NCBI RefSeq assembly: GCF_003385235.1
Contig: NZ_PQIA01000010.1
Span: 1-64,000, forward strand
Direction of reading: 5' to 3'
Source of the DNA: Amycolatopsis circi
Lineage (GTDB): Bacteria; Actinomycetota; Actinomycetes; Mycobacteriales; Pseudonocardiaceae
DNA: 64,000 nucleotides
Position numbers and translations under genes: made by a program. Positions within the stretch are counted from its first letter, which is position 1; every line of letters begins with the position of its first letter. Shown here piece after piece: positions 4,205-12,806 of the stretch. The notes beneath the pieces are model-generated. The model did no database searches. It was not told the origin of the DNA and saw only the letters and a list, made by a program, of their open reading frames with translations.

Positions 4205-5701
4205 CTACTCACTAGGTCGGGCAAGAATCACCGCGCGGGCGGCCAGATGCAGAGCCAACCGCTCATCCGGACGTGACAGATCGACGTGCAGCAACTGCTC
4301 GATCCGGCCGATCCGCGCAGCCACCGTATTCCGGTGAATCCCCAGCACCGTCGCAGTTTCAGCCAGCGAAGACTCCGCGTCGAGATAAGCCGCGAGGGTC
4401 CGGATCAGGTCGCCGGGCACCGAGACCAGCGGAGCGAGCAACGCACGCGCAGCAGGCTCGAACGTGTCGGTCCGCGTCCATTCCAAGAGCAACTGGGCCA
4501 TGCCGAGCTGGTCTACGTGCAGGAAATGCCCGGTCTCCGGACGCGCTGCGGCGAGGCCGGCGGCGTCGGTGGCTTCGGCGACTGTCGCGGTGAGACCGTC
4601 TGCATGGGGACGGCCGACGCCTAGGTGTGCGTCGAGCGTGCGGCGAAGGCTTCGGTGCACGGCGCGCAGCCGCGCGGACAGCGCCCGCACCCGTTCCGCC
4701 GTCGGTTCTTGTTCGAAGGTGACCCAGCCGGTCCAGCCCTCGCCGTGTTCGACGGTGACCGCGTCGATCGACTCTGCCCGAAGCGCGCGCACGACTTCCT
4801 GCGTGCGGGAAACAGTGTCGACGTCCGCGGGCACGCCGATGCGCAGGCCGACGTGCCAGCCGCCGAGTCGCCAGCCCGCGTCGGCGGCGCGGCGACGCAG
4901 GTCGGCACCGGGTTCGGTGTCTTGACGCAGCAAATCGCCCAGCAGCGCGGACCGGGAGCGGGCATCGCGTTCCAGCTCCAGGCGGTGGGCCAGCAGCCAG
5001 CGCTGCACGGCACCTGCCGCCACAGCCAGCGTCGCGGCGACGACGTCCGCGCGCGGGGACTTGGCTCCGGTCAGCTCCGCGGCCAGCCAGACCGACGGCT
5101 GCGGCAGCACCGCAGGATGCGCGAGCAGGACGCCGTCCGGAAGCGTGATGCGTTGCGGGACCGGCTCATGGACTCGTACGCGCGCAGCCTCGGCGAGTTC
5201 ACCGGCGAGCACCTCGCCGCGGTCGTCGAGGACGGCGACGGGAGCGTCCAACAGTCGCCGCAGGACGGTCACGATTTCTTCCGGCGGGCGCAACCGCTCC
5301 CCCAACGCCCGGTGCGCGGCGAGTACGGCGTCGGCGCGGTCGATGTCCGGGGCAGCCAGCGCAAGGCGGGCGTCCACGAGCAGATCGAGCGGATCGGCGG
5401 ACGTGACCAGCAGCGGCACTGACAGCCGTTCGGCCAGAAGTCGTGACGCGGCAAGCGGTTCGGCTCCGGGAAGCAGGACTCCGGCGGCTCGGGCGTCCGC
5501 GCAACGGCGCAGGAGGGCGTCGATCTGCCAGTCGGAACCGAGCGAGCGGACCAGCACCACCAGTTCGCCGGAAGCGGGAGTGCCGGAGGCGTCCAGCGCG
5601 GCTTTTACTGTCCGCAGTGGACGGTCCAAACCGGACTCGCCGGAGCACACCCGAACCGGACCAGCCCACGAGGGCAGCGCGAGCAGCTGACGGAGGATCA
5701 C
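4205..5701 (-). CDS. PucR-family transcriptional regulator
   Basis: A 498-residue regulator. The N-terminal half (about 1-130) resembles the purine-catabolism sensing domain (VILRQLLALPSW at the start). The C-terminus has the PucR helix-turn-helix: LAAYLDAESSLAETATVLG then HRNTVAARIGRIEQLL, at about residues 430-475. PucR proteins control purine, ureide or hydantoin use. The start is GTG 5701, whose GTGA overlaps the stop of the upstream DUF917 gene, so this is the last gene of the seven-gene operon and is translationally coupled to it. This suggests feedback control of the operon by its own product. Confidence 0.9.
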   Translation of the reverse strand: MILRQLLALPSWAGPVRVCSGESGLDRPLRTVKAALDASGTPASGELVVLVRSLGSDWQIDALLRRCADARAAGVLLPGAEPLAASRLLAERLSVPLLVTSADPLDLLVDARLALAAPDIDRADAVLAAHRALGERLRPPEEIVTVLRRLLDAPVAVLDDRGEVLAGELAEAARVRVHEPVPQRITLPDGVLLAHPAVLPQPSVWLAAELTGAKSPRADVVAATLAVAAGAVQRWLLAHRLELERDARSRSALLGDLLRQDTEPGADLRRRAADAGWRLGGWHVGLRIGVPADVDTVSRTQEVVRALRAESIDAVTVEHGEGWTGWVTFEQEPTAERVRALSARLRAVHRSLRRTLDAHLGVGRPHADGLTATVAEATDAAGLAAARPETGHFLHVDQLGMAQLLLEWTRTDTFEPAARALLAPLVSVPGDLIRTLAAYLDAESSLAETATVLGIHRNTVAARIGRIEQLLHVDLSRPDERLALHLAARAVILARPSE

Positions 5702-6768
5702 TGTGCTACCACCGGATCGCAGTCGATTCCGTACGCGCGCGGCTCCAGCAGCGGGCGGCGTCGCGGGTCGGTCCAGAACGGTGATGCGGCCAGGCACACG
5801 ACGTCCACCTCGACCCCGGCGCGGATCGCGTCGCACTGCAGCGGGACGCCGGTGCGGCGGTCCAGCACCGACAGAACGTCCGGAGTGGACGCCACCGGAA
5901 GCCCGTCCCGCAGCGCCAGCAGGTACTCGTTTTCCATCTCCAGCCGCAGCAACGCGCCGTCGCGGTGATCGGTCAGCGTCGCCGAGCCACGCCCGAACCC
6001 GGGGTGCCCGTGCTGTCCGGGACCGAGGTGCCGAGACACCTCCAGCACCCGGCCGCGGGCGAGAACCCGGCCGTCGAGGGCGGTTTCCAGCGCGGCCAGG
6101 TCCGGGCTTTCCCCGGCGGCGAGGACGCGGGCACCGAGGGCGAGCGCCTCGCTCGTCGTGTCGAGGACGGCGTGGTCGGCCAGTTCACCGGCCGGGATCG
6201 GGGCGAGCGCGATCGCCGCCCAGCCGCCTGAGCTGGCCAGGAACGCGCGGATCCCGCTCTCGACCACCGGGGCGGCCGCGGCGGCGAGCACCACCACCCG
6301 GCCGCCGGGTTCGGCCAGCGCCGCCGGAGCCACGCCGCGTCCGGTCGCGGCGACCGAGAGCTGGTCGAGTCTCGGCAGCCCGCGTCCGGACAGGTCCGCG
6401 TCGGCATAGCCCAGCCCCAGTTCCTGGGCGACCACCAGCGGAAGCAGGCCGTTCAGGCCACCGATCTCGATGGACATCAACGCCTGCGCGCGCTGCCCGG
6501 TCCAGCGTTCGATCGCGGCGATCGCCGAGGCGAATTCGTCGCCGCTGGGCAGCTTTTCGGCGAACGCGGCGGTCGCGCCGACGATGCCGATCGGCACCAC
6601 GAGGGTGTCCGGCGGCAGGTCCGCGACCGGGTGCACGACGGGTTCGCGGCCGGATTCGGTCAGCCGCCGCAGCAGCACCGCCGCGGTGACGGTGTCCCCG
6701 CCCCCGCCGGACCCGAGCAGCGCGACGCCGCGTTCGAGTGCCGGCACGTCCGCGGCGGTGATGCGCAT
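5698..6768 (-). CDS. DUF917 / S-methyl-thiohydantoin desulfurase-like protein, diverged third copy
   Basis: A 356-residue member of the DUF917 family, reclassified in Pfam around S-methyl thiohydantoin desulfurase. The Gly-rich start is ALLGSGGGGDT (residues 15-25), followed by LVVPIGIVGA and an EIGGLNGLLPLVVAQELG block. It differs from the other two copies where they share VDADGMGRAFPELQM: here the segment reads ADADLSGRGLPRLDQL, so the Met-Gly-Arg-Ala-Phe-Pro-Glu signature is lost. It may therefore have another substrate or a structural role. It is penultimate in the operon; its stop overlaps the PucR start by four bases. Confidence 0.85.
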   Translation of the reverse strand: MRITAADVPALERGVALLGSGGGGDTVTAAVLLRRLTESGREPVVHPVADLPPDTLVVPIGIVGATAAFAEKLPSGDEFASAIAAIERWTGQRAQALMSIEIGGLNGLLPLVVAQELGLGYADADLSGRGLPRLDQLSVAATGRGVAPAALAEPGGRVVVLAAAAAPVVESGIRAFLASSGGWAAIALAPIPAGELADHAVLDTTSEALALGARVLAAGESPDLAALETALDGRVLARGRVLEVSRHLGPGQHGHPGFGRGSATLTDHRDGALLRLEMENEYLLALRDGLPVASTPDVLSVLDRRTGVPLQCDAIRAGVEVDVVCLAASPFWTDPRRRPLLEPRAYGIDCDPVVAQ

Positions 6769-6782
6769 GGCTGGTCAGCGTA

Positions 6783-7502
6783 TCAGCGGAAGCTGTACCC
6801 GCCGTCCGGATACAGCGTCGAGCCGGTGGTGTAAGTGCTGGTGAACAGGTACAGCACGGCATCGGCCACTTCGGACTCGCGGCCGACGCGGTGCAGCAGA
6901 GTGTCCGCGCGGTACTGCGCGAAACTCGATTCCCGCGAGGCGGCCGGACGCCCGGCCCACAGGTTCCCGTCGATCGTGCCCGGCGACACGACGTTCACCC
7001 GTACCGGGGCCAGCTCCACCGCGAGCCCGCGACCAAGACCCTCGATCGCCGCGTTGCACGCCACGTACGCCGGGGCCGCGGCAGGCGGGCGCACGCTCGC
7101 GACGCCGGACATCAGCACCACCGACGCGTCCGGCGACAGCTTCGGCGCGGCGTGTTTCACCGCGTGGTACTGGCCCCAGAACTTGGTGACGAACGGGCTT
7201 TCCGCCTCCTCGTCGCTGAGGTCGCGCATCGGGCCGACGGTGTAGGACGCGGCGGGCGTGAACAGGTGGTCGACCCGGTCCAGCGCGCCGAAGAACTCGG
7301 CCAGCGACTCCTGGTCGGTGGTGTCCACCGCCTGCCAGGTCGCGGTCGGGCCCAGTTCCGCCGCGGCGGCCCGCAGTTTGTCGCCGGACCGGCCGCCGAG
7401 GTGGACGAGCGCGCCCGCCGCCGTCGCGCGCCGGGCGACCTCCAGCCCGATCCCGGAACCGCCGCCGAGCACCACGACCGCCCGGCCGTCGAGCGAACTC
7501 AC
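6783..7502 (-). CDS. SDR-like protein with the catalytic lysine replaced
   Basis: A 239-residue SDR-fold protein. The cofactor loop is VLGGGSGIGLEVA (residues 11-23) and a Ser is present in VLMSGVAS. Where classical SDRs have Tyr-x-x-x-Lys, this protein reads PAYVACNAAIEG: the Tyr is present but the fourth following residue is Asn (codon AAC). The NAG motif is also replaced, by FTPAASY. It may be a non-catalytic or altered-chemistry SDR. It lies between DUF917 genes; its GTG start overlaps the preceding DUF917 stop (GTGA), so it is a true operon member. Confidence 0.85.
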   Translation of the reverse strand: MSSLDGRAVVVLGGGSGIGLEVARRATAAGALVHLGGRSGDKLRAAAAELGPTATWQAVDTTDQESLAEFFGALDRVDHLFTPAASYTVGPMRDLSDEEAESPFVTKFWGQYHAVKHAAPKLSPDASVVLMSGVASVRPPAAAPAYVACNAAIEGLGRGLAVELAPVRVNVVSPGTIDGNLWAGRPAASRESSFAQYRADTLLHRVGRESEVADAVLYLFTSTYTTGSTLYPDGGYSFR

Positions 7503-8593
7503 GAAGCCACCTCCACGGGTACGAAATCGTGCGGCAGCCCGAACGCCGCCGGGCCGAACGTGGCCAGCGCTTCCGGGGTGCGCATGAGCGGCGGCGTCGA
7601 GATCCCGACCACGGTGACGCGCTGGCCGTAGCGCAGCGTTTCGGTGGTGATCGGCTCGGCGGATTCCGCCTCCAGCACGCAGATCAGGTCAGGGACCAGG
7701 CAGCGCACGTCACCGTCGACGAGCGCTACCAGGTTTTCGTTCTGGAAAAGGATTTCCAGCTTGCGGTCGCCCTCGAAGGACACGATGGCGGCGCGTCCGC
7801 GAGCGAATCCTTCTTCGGTGCGACGTTCCACATCGGACACTTTGCCGCGGAACAACACTCGCAGATGCGAGTACAGCGTGTCGCTGAGCGCACTCGCCAA
7901 CGCGGCTATCGGGTCGGCATTCTGTTCGCGGGCAAGGCGAATCGCCCGGCCGACGCTCAACGCCAGCGACAACGTCCTCGGCACCGCCGTACGTTTTACG
8001 TCCGCGCCGCTCATCGAGTATTCGGCGATGTGCGCGACACCGCCGAGCCGGATGGTGATCCCGCGCGCGAGCCATTCCATCCGCCGGTTGTCGGCTCCGG
8101 TGTCGATCACCGTGGTCTCGCCGCGTTCCCCGGCGATCCCCATCGGCGAACCGGAGACGCCGTACACGCCGAACGTCTCCATCTGCAGCTCCGGGAACGC
8201 CCGGCCCATGCCGTCGGCGTCGACCACCGGCAGCCCGAGCCGCGCGCCGACGACCAGCGGGATCATCGAGTTGATCCCGCCGCATTCGATCGGCATCGTC
8301 GCGTCGGCCTTCGCGCCGAGGTGCTTTTCCAGCGCTCGCAAGGCAAGTTCGGGCTCGGCGCCGTTCGGGAGCTTCTCGTGCACGACGGTCGGCGCGCCCA
8401 TTTGCGCGGTCGGGATGACAAGGGCGTCGTCGTCCAGGTCTTCCGGATCGAGCACGGTGACGGGGCCGTGCTCGCGGATCGCTTCGCGCACCAGCAGCCG
8501 TCCGACGTACGGGTCGCCGCCACCACCGGTACCAAGGACGGCCGCGCCGCGGGCTAGGTCTTCGAGGTGGTCTTCGGTCAACCTCCAACTCAT
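7499..8593 (-). CDS. DUF917 / S-methyl-thiohydantoin desulfurase-like protein
   Basis: A 364-residue DUF917 protein. Motifs: GAAVLGTGGGGDPYVGRLL near the N-terminus, ALVIPTAQMGAPTV, then ECGGINSMIPLVVGARLG and VDADGMGRAFPELQM about residues 110-145. These Gly-rich blocks are the family hallmark; members occur with hydantoinase A-like proteins. The start is ATG 8593 (MSWRLTEDHLEDLARG), which aligns with the neighbouring paralogue, although its ribosome site is weak (GGCGG). The gene overlaps the next one by GTGA. Together with the copy at 8679-9749 it probably forms one functional unit with the HyuA-like protein. Substrate is inferred only from context. Confidence 0.88.
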   Translation of the reverse strand: MSWRLTEDHLEDLARGAAVLGTGGGGDPYVGRLLVREAIREHGPVTVLDPEDLDDDALVIPTAQMGAPTVVHEKLPNGAEPELALRALEKHLGAKADATMPIECGGINSMIPLVVGARLGLPVVDADGMGRAFPELQMETFGVYGVSGSPMGIAGERGETTVIDTGADNRRMEWLARGITIRLGGVAHIAEYSMSGADVKRTAVPRTLSLALSVGRAIRLAREQNADPIAALASALSDTLYSHLRVLFRGKVSDVERRTEEGFARGRAAIVSFEGDRKLEILFQNENLVALVDGDVRCLVPDLICVLEAESAEPITTETLRYGQRVTVVGISTPPLMRTPEALATFGPAAFGLPHDFVPVEVAS

Positions 8594-8678
8594 GTCCGCA
8601 CCGCCGAAAGACGAGCTGCGCCGATGACATCCGAGGCGGCGCGGACATCGGTGCCCATGATTCGCTCGCAAGCGTCGC

Positions 8679-9749
8679 TCATCCCGCAACTCCGATCGGG
8701 TCCAGGTCGTAGCCGAAGTACCGCGGACCGGCCAGCGCGATGCCTTCCGGAGTGTGCCAGCGGGGATCCGCCGGGGCCGCGATCACCGTCACCCGCTGGC
8801 CGTAGCGCAGGCCTTCGGTGGTGACCGCCTCGCCGGACTCGCGGTCGAGGGTGCAGATCAGGTCCGGCACCGAAGCGCGCACCTCGCCGTCCACTTCGGC
8901 CACCAGGTGCTCGTTCTGGAAGCGCAGCAACATTTCCGTCCCGATGTCACCGTCCATTCCGGACAGTCGAGCCTCACCGCGGGCGAACCCCGTGACGGTT
9001 CGGCGAGCCACGTCGACGACCTTGCCGCTGAACAGCGTCCTGCCGCGCAGCCGCGCCACGACGCGATCGACCGGGTTCTCGTGCGCCTCGCGCGCCTGCC
9101 GCACGAGCGCGCCGAGTTCCGCGCACAGGGTCAGTGTGCCGGGCACCATCGACTCCCGCGCCTGCGCGCCGGACATCGCGTAGTTGCTGATCATCGCCGA
9201 GCAACCCATGTCGATGGTCGCCGACCGGGCGAGCCGCTCCGCCCAGTGATTGTCCACAGTGTCCAGTACGCCGCGGTTGCCCTTCTCGTCCGCAATGGAC
9301 ATCGGGGTCGCGCGGATTCCGTACAGGGTCGGCAAAACCATCTGCAGTTCCGGGAACGCCCGGCCCATGCCGTCCGCGTCCACCAGCGGCAGGCCCAGCT
9401 GCGCCGCCGCGACGACCGGGATCAGCGAGTTCACGCCGCCCGCTTCGGCGCAGGCGATGTGCGTGAGTTCCTTGCCCAGGTAGGTGGCCAGCGTTCGCGC
9501 GGCGAGCCCGACTTGTTCGGCGGACGGCAGCTTTTCCACCATCACGGTCGGCGCGCCCATCATCGCGACCGGCAGCACCACAGCGTCGTCGTCCAATTCG
9601 GACAGTTTCACCAGCGGGACCGAACCGTGCTCGCGGACCGCGGAATGCGCCAGCAACCGTCCGATGTACGGGTCTCCCCCACCGCCGGTGCCGAGAATCG
9701 CCGCGCCACGCGCGATGTCGTCCAAGTCGTGCGCAGTAATCTCAGCCAT
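8679..9749 (-). CDS. DUF917 / S-methyl-thiohydantoin desulfurase-like protein
   Basis: A 356-residue protein, clearly paralogous to the one at 7499-8593: GAAILGTGGGGDPYIGRLL, VVLPVAMMGAPTVMVEKLP, EAGGVNSLIPVVAAAQLG and VDADGMGRAFPELQM occur in the same order and spacing. The C-terminal part (LRFQNEHLVAEVDGE, RYGQRVTV) also matches. The start ATG 9749 lies three bases after the stop of the hydantoinase A-like gene, so the two are co-translated. In other genomes DUF917 proteins are encoded beside HyuA-type proteins, supporting a joint role in opening or desulfurising hydantoin-like rings. Two such paralogues side by side could form a hetero-oligomer. Confidence 0.9.
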   Translation of the reverse strand: MAEITAHDLDDIARGAAILGTGGGGDPYIGRLLAHSAVREHGSVPLVKLSELDDDAVVLPVAMMGAPTVMVEKLPSAEQVGLAARTLATYLGKELTHIACAEAGGVNSLIPVVAAAQLGLPLVDADGMGRAFPELQMVLPTLYGIRATPMSIADEKGNRGVLDTVDNHWAERLARSATIDMGCSAMISNYAMSGAQARESMVPGTLTLCAELGALVRQAREAHENPVDRVVARLRGRTLFSGKVVDVARRTVTGFARGEARLSGMDGDIGTEMLLRFQNEHLVAEVDGEVRASVPDLICTLDRESGEAVTTEGLRYGQRVTVIAAPADPRWHTPEGIALAGPRYFGYDLDPIGVAG

Positions 9750-9752
9750 CGT

Positions 9753-11303
9753 TCACGCCCCCAGCTGCAGGTCGCCGACCGCCTTGACCCGGATCCGGGT
9801 GGCGTTGCCGGGCAGGTACGGGATCGGCACCTCGTCGAAGTCGACGATGCCCACGGACGCCGGGCTCGCCCCGGCGGCCACCGCGCGGTCGACCGCTTCC
9901 TGCTTCGCCTCGTCCACCACGGCCTCTCGACGGCCTGGCTCGATCACGTAGACCCGATCGACCTCGCCGCCGATCTGCGCGATCGCCGCGCCGATCGCGT
10001 TGGCCACCGCGTAGTGGTCCGGCCGGCGCACCTCGCCGGAACCGGCCAATTCGTCCGGCAGCAGCACCGAACCGCCGGCGACGGCGACCACCGGGAGCGG
10101 CTCGGACGACGTGCGCATCCGGTCGACGACATCGGAAACGTCCGCCGCGATCCGGTCCAGCGCGGCCTTCACGAAGTCCCGGTCGAGGTGCGCGACCAGC
10201 GACGGGTCGCCGATCTCGGCCCGCCCGGCAGCGACCGCGATGTCCGTGGCGGTCAAGGTGTCTCCGCCGAAGACGAGCGCCTTCGAGGTCAGCTCGTAAC
10301 CGACGGAATCCGGTCCGACGGTCACGCCGGACGCGTCGCCGCGGACCCGGCTGCCGCCGCCGATGCCGATCGAAAGGACGTCCGGCATCCGGAAGTTCGT
10401 GCGGATCCCGGCCACGCTCACGTCCGTGGTCGCCTCGCGCGGGAATCCCTGGCGCAGCACGCCGACGTCGCTCGTGGTGCCGCCGACGTCGACCACCGCG
10501 CAAGTGTCCAAACCGGACAGCACCGCCGCGCCGCGCATCGAGTTCGTCGGACCCGACGCGAAGGTCGCGACCGGGTAGCGGCGGGCGAAGTCGACGTCCA
10601 TCAGCGTGCCGTCGTTCTGGCTCAGGTACAGCGGCGCGGTGATGCCCGCGCCGGTGACCGACGCGGCCAGACCGTCCACGATGTGCGCCGCCAGCTCGCG
10701 CAGCGCGGCGTTGATGACAGTCGCGTTTTCCCGCTCCAGCAAGCCGATCCGGCCGATTTCGTGGGACAGCGAGATCGCGACGTCCGGCAGCTGCGAAGCG
10801 ATGATCTCCGCCGCACGCGCCTCGAACTCCGCGTTCACCGGCGAGAAGACCGACGTGATCGCGACGCTGCGGACTCCGGCGGAGCCCATGTCGTCGGCGG
10901 CCTTGCGCAGTTCGCTCTCGTCCAGTTCGGCGATGTGCCGTCCGTCGAACTCGTGGCCGCCGTGCACCAGGTAGCTGCGCCCGGACACCGCGTCGACCAG
11001 CCGCTGCGGCCAGTCCACCATCGGCGGCAGCGACGCGCCGGCGGGCAGGCTGAGCCGCACCGCCGCGGTCGGGGCGAGCCGGTGCGCCTCGACGAGCGCG
11101 TTGATGAAGTGCGTGGTGCCGATCATGACCGCCCGCACCGCGGCCGGGTCGAACGCGCGCTGCCGCTGCAGCCCGTCGATCGCGGCGACGATGCCCGAGG
11201 TGACGTCCTCGGTGGTGCTGGTCTTGATCGAGGCGAGCACCTCGCGGCCGTCCAGCAGGACCGCGTCGGTGTTGGTGCCGCCGACGTCGATGCCGATGCG
11301 CAC
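9753..11303 (-). CDS. Hydantoinase/oxoprolinase A-like protein (ATP-dependent ring opening)
   Basis: A 516-residue protein of the hydantoinase A / oxoprolinase family, which uses ATP to open hydantoin, oxoproline or similar rings. The N-terminal actin-like phosphate loop is RIGIDVGGTNTDAVLLDGR (residues 2-20), followed by MIGTTHFINALVE, then SLPAGASLPP. The second actin-like loop is AVVDVGGTTSDVGVL near residue 275. GTG 11303 is the start because GGAAGGAG precedes it and the phosphate loop follows at once, as in the family. It is shorter than the large A subunits that pair with HyuB, and no HyuB is nearby; DUF917 proteins take that place. Confidence 0.9.
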   Translation of the reverse strand: MRIGIDVGGTNTDAVLLDGREVLASIKTSTTEDVTSGIVAAIDGLQRQRAFDPAAVRAVMIGTTHFINALVEAHRLAPTAAVRLSLPAGASLPPMVDWPQRLVDAVSGRSYLVHGGHEFDGRHIAELDESELRKAADDMGSAGVRSVAITSVFSPVNAEFEARAAEIIASQLPDVAISLSHEIGRIGLLERENATVINAALRELAAHIVDGLAASVTGAGITAPLYLSQNDGTLMDVDFARRYPVATFASGPTNSMRGAAVLSGLDTCAVVDVGGTTSDVGVLRQGFPREATTDVSVAGIRTNFRMPDVLSIGIGGGSRVRGDASGVTVGPDSVGYELTSKALVFGGDTLTATDIAVAAGRAEIGDPSLVAHLDRDFVKAALDRIAADVSDVVDRMRTSSEPLPVVAVAGGSVLLPDELAGSGEVRRPDHYAVANAIGAAIAQIGGEVDRVYVIEPGRREAVVDEAKQEAVDRAVAAGASPASVGIVDFDEVPIPYLPGNATRIRVKAVGDLQLGA

Positions 11304-11320
11304 GAAAACTCCTTCCAGGT

Positions 11321-11367
11321 CGTCGTGCGTGGCAATGCCGGTTCTAACCGGCATCGCCACTCACGAG
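11321..11367. repeat. Palindromic repeat, GGTTCTAACC-core family (copy 1)
   Basis: An imperfect palindrome with centre ATGCCGGTTCTAACCGGCAT and outer arms related to CTCGTGAGTGGC. It fills the short gap between the permease gene and the hydantoinase A-like gene, just upstream of the latter's ribosome site. Other copies: 15112-15157, 15243-15286, 47367-47412. It may act as an attenuating or processing hairpin inside the operon. Confidence 0.8.
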
Positions 11368-11370
11368 GTC

Positions 11371-12696
11371 TTAGGCGGCCGGGGCGGGTTCGGCGTCCGC
11401 GGTGCGGCTTTTGCCGACCCCGCGGACCAGGCCGAGCTTCCCGGCGGCCACGTACAGAACGAAAGCGACGACGAGCGAGTTGATGCTGGGCAGGCCCCAG
11501 TCCACGAACTCGCCGAAGAGCGCGGCGGCGATCCAGACGACGATCGTCGCGGGCACCCACAGCGGGGCGTCGGTGGGCACCGCGCCGCGGGCCCGAGCCT
11601 CCTCCAGGACGCCGCGCCACTGCTTCACCACGAAGTACTCGGCCACCATGATCCCGGCGATGGGCGGGAACGCGACCCCGAGCACGGTCAGGAAATCGGT
11701 GAACTTCGAGAGGATCCCTGCCGCCGCGAGCACGCTGCCCACCAGGCCGAGGACCGCGGTGACCAGGCCGCGGTGCGCCCGCTTCCCGGACACGGTGCCG
11801 ATGAAGTTCACGACGCCGAGCCCGGACGAGTACAGGTTCCAGTCGTTGATCTTCATCGTGCCCGCGATGACGATCAGCAGCCCGACCCAGCCGACCGACG
11901 AGGTGACGATCGTGGTGATCTGCGCCGTGCCGACCGCGTGCGCGAGCAGCACTCCGGCCAGGCCGATCACGTACTCGCCGAGCGTGACGCCGACGAGCGT
12001 CTGCTTGACGACGTCGCCGGTGGTGCGGTTGAACCGGGTCATGTCCGGCGTGATCACCGCGCCGACGATGAACCCGCCCGCGACCAGCGTCGTGCCCTGC
12101 AGCAGGCTCAGGTGCGGGCCGGGCGGCGCGGACGCGACGAGCGCGCCGAGGTCGTGCCGGGTCAGTTCGGAGACCACCGACCAGCCGACCAGGATCAGGA
12201 ACGCGGGCACCATCAGGTAAGCAGTCCACGCCATCGAGTGGAAACCGCGCACCACGATCGCGGTCACCACCAGGCCGAACACGAGCGCCCAGCCCCATTC
12301 CGGCAGGCCGCCCACCAGCGCGGCGAGGCCTTGCGCGGACACCGCGGACTGGATGCCGAACCAGCCGATCAGGCTGATCCCGATGGCCAGCCCGATGAGC
12401 GCGGAACCGCCGCGGCCGAAGCCGGTCCAGCGCGCGATCATCGAGGTGGTCAGGCCCTCGCGGACGCCGATCACGCCGACGAGAATGGTGATCAGCTCGA
12501 GGATGACCGAGCCGAGCGTGAACGCCAGCACGGCGTTCCCGAAGCTCATCCCGAAACCGATCGTGGCGCCGAGCAGGAACTGCGACAGCGCGGAAACCTG
12601 GCCGAACCGCTGCACAGCGACCGACCACCAGGAGTAACGGGCGGAATCGGGCACCCTGGTCAGCGCGTAATCGTCGACACCGACAGCCGAGGCCAT
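11371..12696 (-). CDS. NCS1-family permease (cytosine/purine/hydantoin-type transporter)
   Basis: A 441-residue integral membrane protein with about twelve hydrophobic segments. The N-terminal region SWWSVAVQRFGQVSALSQFLLGATIGFG is typical of the cytosine permease (CodB-like) branch of NCS1, cation symporters for nucleobases and hydantoins. A charged loop (VAEYFVVKQWRG) follows TM8-9 as in CodB. It is the first gene of the seven-gene operon; the next gene is 67 bases downstream behind a palindromic repeat. A transporter ahead of ring-opening enzymes suggests that the substrate is imported. Start ATG 12696; GAGGAG is visible upstream. Confidence 0.88.
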   Translation of the reverse strand: MASAVGVDDYALTRVPDSARYSWWSVAVQRFGQVSALSQFLLGATIGFGMSFGNAVLAFTLGSVILELITILVGVIGVREGLTTSMIARWTGFGRGGSALIGLAIGISLIGWFGIQSAVSAQGLAALVGGLPEWGWALVFGLVVTAIVVRGFHSMAWTAYLMVPAFLILVGWSVVSELTRHDLGALVASAPPGPHLSLLQGTTLVAGGFIVGAVITPDMTRFNRTTGDVVKQTLVGVTLGEYVIGLAGVLLAHAVGTAQITTIVTSSVGWVGLLIVIAGTMKINDWNLYSSGLGVVNFIGTVSGKRAHRGLVTAVLGLVGSVLAAAGILSKFTDFLTVLGVAFPPIAGIMVAEYFVVKQWRGVLEEARARGAVPTDAPLWVPATIVVWIAAALFGEFVDWGLPSINSLVVAFVLYVAAGKLGLVRGVGKSRTADAEPAPAA

Positions 12697-12762
12697 GGCG
12701 GCTCCTCATCCGGGAGGGGAACGGTTCCCAGCACCGTAAGCAGCGGCTCCGGCGAGGTCACC

Positions 12763-12806
12763 GTGCGATCCGCACAGCCTAGATAGCTCGGCTGTGCAAG
12801 TCGCAC
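12763..12806. promoter_or_regulatory. Two-part symmetric inverted repeat between permease and crcB genes
   Basis: Arms GTGCGA and GCACAGCC are matched by GGCTGTGC and TCGCAC, with equal three-base spacers and a ten-base centre. It lies 66-109 bases upstream of the permease start and three bases after the crcB2 stop. It could be the PucR operator of the operon, the crcB terminator (no T-tract), or both. Confidence 0.5.

Follow-up and report, generated by a model that had tools for sequence, protein, structure and literature searches.

The minus strand of a 64,000-nucleotide stretch of the Amycolatopsis circi genome (contig NZ_PQIA01000010.1, positions 1 to 64,000; hereafter the window) carries, at positions 4205–12696, a seven-gene operon in which a 516-residue HyuA-like ATPase is followed by proteins of the DUF917 family. 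DUF917 probably takes the place of HyuB beside this HyuA, and a third DUF917 protein of the same operon goes with its PucR-family regulator and not with HyuA. We consider it reasonably probable that the operon, which also encodes an NCS1 permease with operator- and promoter-like blocks ahead of it, serves PucR-controlled uptake and ATP-dependent opening of a nucleobase- or hydantoin-like ring, with DUF917 in HyuB's place.

The 516-residue HyuA is paired with DUF917

The gene for HyuA (9753–11303; PF05378 and PF01968; this and all other features described here lie on the minus strand) is separated by three bases from the first DUF917 gene, D1 (8679–9749), which is directly followed by a second, D2 (7499–8593). 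Both match PF06032 and PF20906, and a tree places D1 in a HyuA-linked lineage and D2 in a second one. The first-pass annotation of this DNA had suggested that DUF917 proteins replace HyuB here, and the evidence favours that suggestion. Across 394 sampled genomes of the class, with at most three HyuA and five DUF917 candidates scored per genome, a same-strand DUF917 gene was found within 300 bases of 41 of the 42 HyuA matches at E ≤ 1e-60, and the sole exception starts at base 8 of its contig. The source genome also encodes four longer HyuA proteins (open frames of 689–720 residues), each adjoining HyuB; its four matches to the HyuB family PF02538 all adjoin these longer proteins, and none lies beside the 516-residue HyuA. 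Finally, the distances between HyuA proteins and those between their adjacent DUF917 proteins are strongly correlated (Mantel r 0.84 over 46 pairs, with 0 of 2000 permutations as high), the pairs being those left after loci L004–L028 and pairs more than 80% alike in HyuA were omitted. In six loci with two pairs each, the real pairing comes out ahead of all others among 64 within-locus arrangements (0.842, with a close runner-up at 0.836), a comparison that controls for species history. We conclude that HyuA and the adjacent DUF917 co-evolve and, from the adjacency, the confinement of HyuB to the longer HyuA proteins and this co-evolution, that DUF917 probably stands in HyuB's place.

The two partners also appear to be mutually exclusive. 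Among 96 HyuA matches of at least 60 bits in the collected loci, 89 lie near DUF917 only, six near HyuB only and one near neither (within 2.5 kb). DUF917 was the ground for choosing most of these loci, and HyuB for choosing four, so that what is informative is the exclusivity. It holds even inside L085, the Paenarthrobacter sp. YJN-5 plasmid pYJN5-3, where a HyuA–DUF917 pair and a separate HyuA–HyuB pair lie within about 12 kb. In a HyuA tree retaining 55 of the 96 rows after grouping at 82% identity, the HyuB-linked proteins form one group (support 100/100) on a long branch. Open frames of 863–889 residues in five matches had raised the suspicion of a HyuA–DUF917 gene fusion; the genes are separate in the three that were fetched (L062, L063 and L064), and no open reading frame of the collected loci matches both families.

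HyuA–DUF917 pairs are spread over actinobacteria, Bacilli, alphaproteobacteria and haloarchaea (Haloferax). Those of lactobacilli, Listeria, Parageobacillus, rhizobia and Haloferax resemble the window operon in forming a two-gene unit with a cytosine-permease-type or ABC importer; they differ from it in having mostly other regulators and importers, and among the plasmid loci only L080, a streptomycete-type record, has a protein of the third window DUF917 clade in the tree. On small lactobacilli plasmids only a permease adjoins the pair, and a Lactobacillus comparison, in its accessible part, does no more than name the pair together with a cytosine permease (PMC7513527). A second pair with a shorter HyuA (about 440–460 residues) occurs along with the first in L059, L065, L072, L086 and L087, from actinobacteria and Parageobacillus.

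Organisation and conservation of the operon

The first-pass annotation had described seven minus-strand genes with gaps of 3–85 bases or 4-base overlaps, and both the coordinates and the spacing were confirmed. The operon begins with the gene for a 441-residue NCS1 permease (11371–12696; PF02133, 86.4 bits against a cut-off of 23.5), which is followed after 67 bases by HyuA. D1 and D2 are 85 bases apart, D2 overlaps by four bases a gene for a short-chain dehydrogenase/reductase (SDR; 6783–7502; PF13561/PF00106), and 14 bases further on the third DUF917 gene, D3 (5698–6768; PF06032 and PF20906), overlaps by four bases that for a PucR-family regulator of about 498 residues (4205–5701). We read the PucR start as the GTG at 5701, the upstream position 5836 being merely the first possible start of the open frame. 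Each of the seven genes exceeds the curated Pfam cut-off of its family. In PucR, HTH_30 (70.3 bits) and GGDEF_2 (43.2 bits) both pass, and the N-terminal PF07905 misses its cut-off (21.3 against 33.5 bits). In the 9.8 Mb source genome, which is in 305 contigs, PF06032 finds three matches at E ≤ 0.001, and every one falls in this operon.

With D3 as the query we fetched 42 related loci and mapped the seven window proteins onto them by tblastn, a route that biases their content towards operons with D3. The order NCS1–HyuA–D1–D2–(SDR)–D3–PucR, intervening genes allowed, is kept in 35 of the 42, which argues that the layout is more than chance. HyuA, D1, D3 and PucR are present in all 42, D2 and the permease in 37 each and the SDR in 16, making it the optional, variable gene of the operon. 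Three DUF917 genes in one operon, which together with the SDR the first-pass annotation had thought unusual, are thus the usual state (37 of 42), and the linkage that it had proposed to look for in relatives is conserved, in gene order as in HyuA–DUF917 adjacency. The loci include members of Amycolatopsis, Prauserella, Saccharopolyspora, Nonomuraea, Planotetraspora, Microbispora, Sphaerisporangium and Quadrisphaera. Identity to the window proteins is highest for HyuA (73–99%) and lowest for D3 (46–95%) and PucR (41–96%), the closest D3 matches, at up to 95%, being from Amycolatopsis species. DUF917 was found in 32 of 80 genomes of the source genus, and D1 relatives at E ≤ 1e-25 in 41 of the 394 genomes of the class sample.

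Three DUF917 genes also occur on the Haloferax mediterranei plasmid pHME132 (L073), where they accompany one HyuA behind an ABC importer, and in one operon of G436. The D1–D2 gap is of similar length to that of the window in L006 and L015, and the two genes touch in L004, L005 and L032; the window sequence at 8594–8680 has no whole-length second copy in the genome, only two short partial matches. The gap between permease and HyuA contains a near-perfect 32-base palindrome (11329–11360), an interspersed repeat with at least 85 matches in the genome, both strands counted and 40 of 308 candidates scored; on contig C146 five copies stand in a row, about 60 bases apart. In the close relatives L004, L005 and L032 this gap is only about 30 bases long. 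The repeat is probably not part of the pathway, and a Y1 transposase as its mover found no support, the genome having no PF01797 match.

The third DUF917 protein goes with PucR

A tree of DUF917 proteins, in which grouping at 78% identity left 89 of 193 rows, places D1, D2 and D3 in separate lineages. By this tree they are three old lineages, and a recent triplication in the window is ruled out; three loci on the D3 side (L054, L055 and L056) have long branches and are placed with less certainty. The D3 clade comprises 27 rows (support 98/97), and PucR adjoins every one of them at 1–218 bases, overlaps being counted as distance. Over 27 loci the distance correlations are 0.95 for D3–PucR, 0.88 for D3–HyuA and 0.93 for HyuA–D1. 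The partial correlation of D3 with PucR, given HyuA and D1, is still 0.78, and that of HyuA with D1 is 0.84, compared with -0.08 for D3 with HyuA; none of 1000 permutations gave a D3–PucR correlation as high. We conclude that D3 goes with PucR and not with HyuA. In Saccharopolyspora L023, L025 and L026 a glycosidase-like gene, named by eye, separates D2 from D3, and L023 has a transporter-like frame as well; the D3–PucR unit can therefore stand apart from the other genes. The DUF917 proteins of the second pairs mentioned above fall outside the D3 clade, and the idea that D3 is a remnant of such a pair was dropped.

These observations bear on a division of roles in which D1 and D2 form the enzyme with HyuA, and D3 instead serves PucR as a sensor or co-regulator. 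This would be compatible with the uptake and ring-opening function that we favour, and we regard it as a tentative possibility. Besides the constant adjacency and the partial correlations, it is favoured by sequence changes in D3: at 11 of the 52 columns conserved in other DUF917 proteins, the conserved residue is kept by under half of the D3 rows. The D1 residues mostly lost in D3 include Pro67, Met128, Phe132, Gln278, Glu312 and Arg319, the positions of Gln278 and Arg319 being mostly Glu in D3. Against it, D3 retains most of the conserved polar residues and may therefore itself be catalytically active; a two-gene block inherited together would give an equal correlation, the uncorrected D3–HyuA value being high too; and outside the D3 clade PucR also adjoins four of the 62 DUF917 rows (L033, L059, L060 and L064). 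D3 may thus be a sensor partner of PucR, or the pair may merely travel together. A more far-reaching proposal, which we put forward as speculative, is that the operon unites two co-evolving modules: a new two-part ATP-dependent enzyme of HyuA with D1 and D2, in which an unrelated fold would replace HyuB, and a sensor module, with D3 co-opted to read or make the signal for PucR, which would in turn activate a single dedicated promoter.

An operator-like site and a promoter block precede the permease

An inverted repeat, TGCACAG-N14-CTGTGCG, lies at 12771–12798, its first base 102 bases upstream of the permease start codon, and is kept upstream of the permease in relatives. Across 38 upstream regions (the window and 37 loci) the consensus TGCACAG-N14-CTGTGCA occurs with at most two mismatches and exact 14-base spacing in 28 and with at most three in 36, counts to be read with the facts that the motif was derived from the same sequences and that many of the loci are close relatives. 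All these sites lie about 94–144 bases upstream of the permease. A scan of the whole loci (775,253 positions) again returned 28 sites with at most two mismatches, and there is therefore none elsewhere in those loci. With the spacing left free between 8 and 18 bases, the best site beats shuffled sequence at the 5% level in 29 of the 38 regions (60 shuffles each).

Downstream of the repeat lies a promoter-like block, GTGACC-N17-TACGGT (12733–12761), which places the repeat just upstream of the -35 box. The pattern TGAC-N16..20-TAnnnT is present in all 38 upstream regions, with a gap of 18 in 36 and of 19 in two, against a background of 0.004 per stretch; a generic sigma-70 scan gave nothing at the block. 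A site directly upstream of the -35 box is a usual location for an activator, and PucR may be the protein that binds this putative operator and activates the permease promoter. The window site is the only one in the genome with at most one mismatch, and the window holds six sites with at most three (2.1 expected). Sites with at most two mismatches number 18 in the genome, compared with 20 in controls, and a wider PucR regulon is therefore not claimed.

Permease residues and neighbouring genes

In the cytosine transporter CodB, as described in the accessible part of one report, Trp108 and Phe204 form an aromatic sandwich, Gln105 reads the cytosine, and Thr278 and Thr279 are sodium ligands (PMC9379551). 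The window permease belongs to the same NCS1 family and keeps the Trp/Phe sandwich; it differs in having Leu109 for Gln105 and Lys282/Ile283 for the two threonines, and scores well under the CodB equivalog cut-off (PRK11017; 154 against 326 bits). The same pattern is seen in 50 related permeases scoring over 300 bits: the sandwich Trp is present in all 50 and the Phe in 45, the Gln105 position is Leu in 49 and Ala in one, and of the two threonine positions the first holds Lys in all 50 and the second Ile in 48. The substrate and the coupling ion therefore probably differ from those of CodB. These residues suggest a substrate that is flat and ring-shaped but is not cytosine, and perhaps proton coupling.

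Among the neighbouring proteins scanned for known families (ten from six loci, then six from five loci), none recurs often enough to name the substrate. Single relatives offer hints: L060 has a molybdenum hydroxylase near the operon, L059 an allophanate hydrolase on the opposite strand, and L036 and L052 have M20 and M19 peptidases. L061, with an AroM gene and an OPT transporter beside the operon, bears on the idea that the operon is a biosynthetic cluster for tailoring a natural product of cyclic-dipeptide or hydantoin type, as does a 2024 paper which, in the part available, reports DUF917 to be enriched in clusters that hold AroM, hydantoin racemases and genes resembling cyclodipeptide oxidases (PMC11055893). 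The window operon has no recognised gene for an oxidase or a synthase, the presence of an importer and of a PucR-type regulator suits breakdown, and the pair occurs with just a permease on the lactobacilli plasmids; we hold a tailoring cluster to be highly improbable.

The window DUF917 proteins are distant from known desulfurases

The same 2024 paper, in its accessible text, describes DUF917 proteins as lacking experimental characterisation and suggests a hydantoinase activity (PMC11055893). NCBIfam now names two desulfurase models in the DUF917 superfamily, for S-methyl thiohydantoin and thiohydantoin (NF058532 and NF058529), and these are the curated models nearest to the window proteins. 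They raise the alternative of a thiohydantoin pathway, in which the DUF917 proteins would strip sulfur from a (methyl)thiohydantoin and HyuA would then open the hydantoin. The window proteins share the superfamily and align over nearly the full length of the models, and sulfur-related genes do occur in some loci: the operon of L080 includes both an OsmC gene and one that is L-cysteine-desulfhydrase-like (572 bits, cut-off 600), and just before the permease L012 carries a 'cysteine desulfurase-like' gene that passes its cut-off (485 against 352 bits), with a similar gene in the same place in L017. However, against cut-offs of 450 and 440 bits the scores are only 112 and 78 for D1, 91 and 80 for D2 and 84 and 65 for D3, and desulfurase membership was rejected for all three. 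The best E-values of 62 relatives to the two models are 2.6e-41 and 3.4e-35, much weaker than expected for a match at the cut-off, and none of 246 genomes of the phylum exceeds the NF058529 cut-off. The window operon itself has no sulfur gene, and a stand-alone desulfurase would leave the pairing with HyuA unexplained. A thiohydantoin pathway therefore seems unlikely. Of the degradation of a hydantoin- or thiohydantoin-like compound proposed in the first-pass annotation, the logic of uptake followed by degradation is supported, and the thiohydantoin part is not, its desulfurase hint being weakened.

Comparison with HyuAB enzymes and a proposed mechanism

In the known HyuAB kind of enzyme, which includes caprolactamase (CapAB), 5-oxoprolinase and N-methylhydantoinase, the window HyuA finds its closest analogy. 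It shares with them the ATPase core, an adjoining partner gene and both phosphate motifs, DxGGTxTD and DxGGT: D6, G8, G9, T10, T12, D13, D272, G274 and G275 are invariant among 50 HyuA proteins and T276 is nearly so. By analogy, ATP activation of a ring amide is a probable further likeness. For CapAB it has been proposed, in the part of the report available, that CapA uses ATP to activate the lactam and CapB opens it at a zinc site, and GxxPGP is described there as the adenosine motif of CapA (PMC8453981). The differences are a smaller HyuA (516 residues, compared with 696 in CapA), the missing GxxPGP, the DUF917 partner and the lack of a conserved His/Cys metal site. Classing the pair as a HyuAB enzyme thus fails, judged from sequence, on partner, metal site and GxxPGP; that it may nevertheless work like one is suggested by the partnership and the ATPase motifs.

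Superposition of the HyuA model on CapA (Z 19.1, rmsd 5.6, 422 residues aligned) is effectively tied with that on acetone carboxylase (Z 18.5). The tie would suit a carboxylase-type ATP enzyme in place of a hydrolase; as the operon has no further carboxylase subunit, and its NCS1 permease and PucR indicate N-heterocycles, we think such an enzyme quite unlikely.

Under the ring-opening function that we favour, the permease would import a small planar compound with a nucleobase- or hydantoin-like ring, and HyuA would spend ATP on activating a ring amide carbonyl. D1, together with D2 and perhaps in a complex with HyuA, would carry out the second step, ring opening or cleavage of the activated bond, in the position of HyuB. 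The SDR, where present, may oxidise or reduce a side group or the product. Acting from the TGCACAG-N14-CTGTGCA site, PucR would activate the promoter of the permease, and D3 would be part of the PucR half of the unit.

Several observations weigh against this scheme. Confidence in the HyuA model is middling (pLDDT 74), and the stretch aligned with GxxPGP reads GYELTS. There is no His or Cys among the invariant or nearly invariant DUF917 columns, the invariant polar residues being Glu, Asp, Asn and Arg, and DUF917 therefore has no metal site of the CapB type (Asp-His-Asp-His). The D1 model (pLDDT 93) gave one clear structural match, 2o3i, a structure with no assigned function; a fold resemblance between DUF917 and HyuB was looked for, and CapB is absent from the list of D1 matches, although absence from a list is no proof of a different fold. 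Five of the 42 loci do without D2, which leaves a division of labour between D1 and D2 unexplained. The operator with free spacing fails to beat shuffled sequence at the 5% level in nine of the 38 regions, and of 16 more distant or permease-less loci only two have a site with at most two mismatches; that of L080 precedes the permease, and that of L036 follows a PucR gene. Finally, the open-licence literature yielded no biochemical result for any HyuA–DUF917 pair.

Should DUF917 turn out to supply the second half of a ring-opening enzyme that uses ATP, many gene names of the 'hydantoinase/oxoprolinase' kind would need replacing. The operon, with its own permease, its own regulator and a single operator, would then offer a compact system for substrate discovery.

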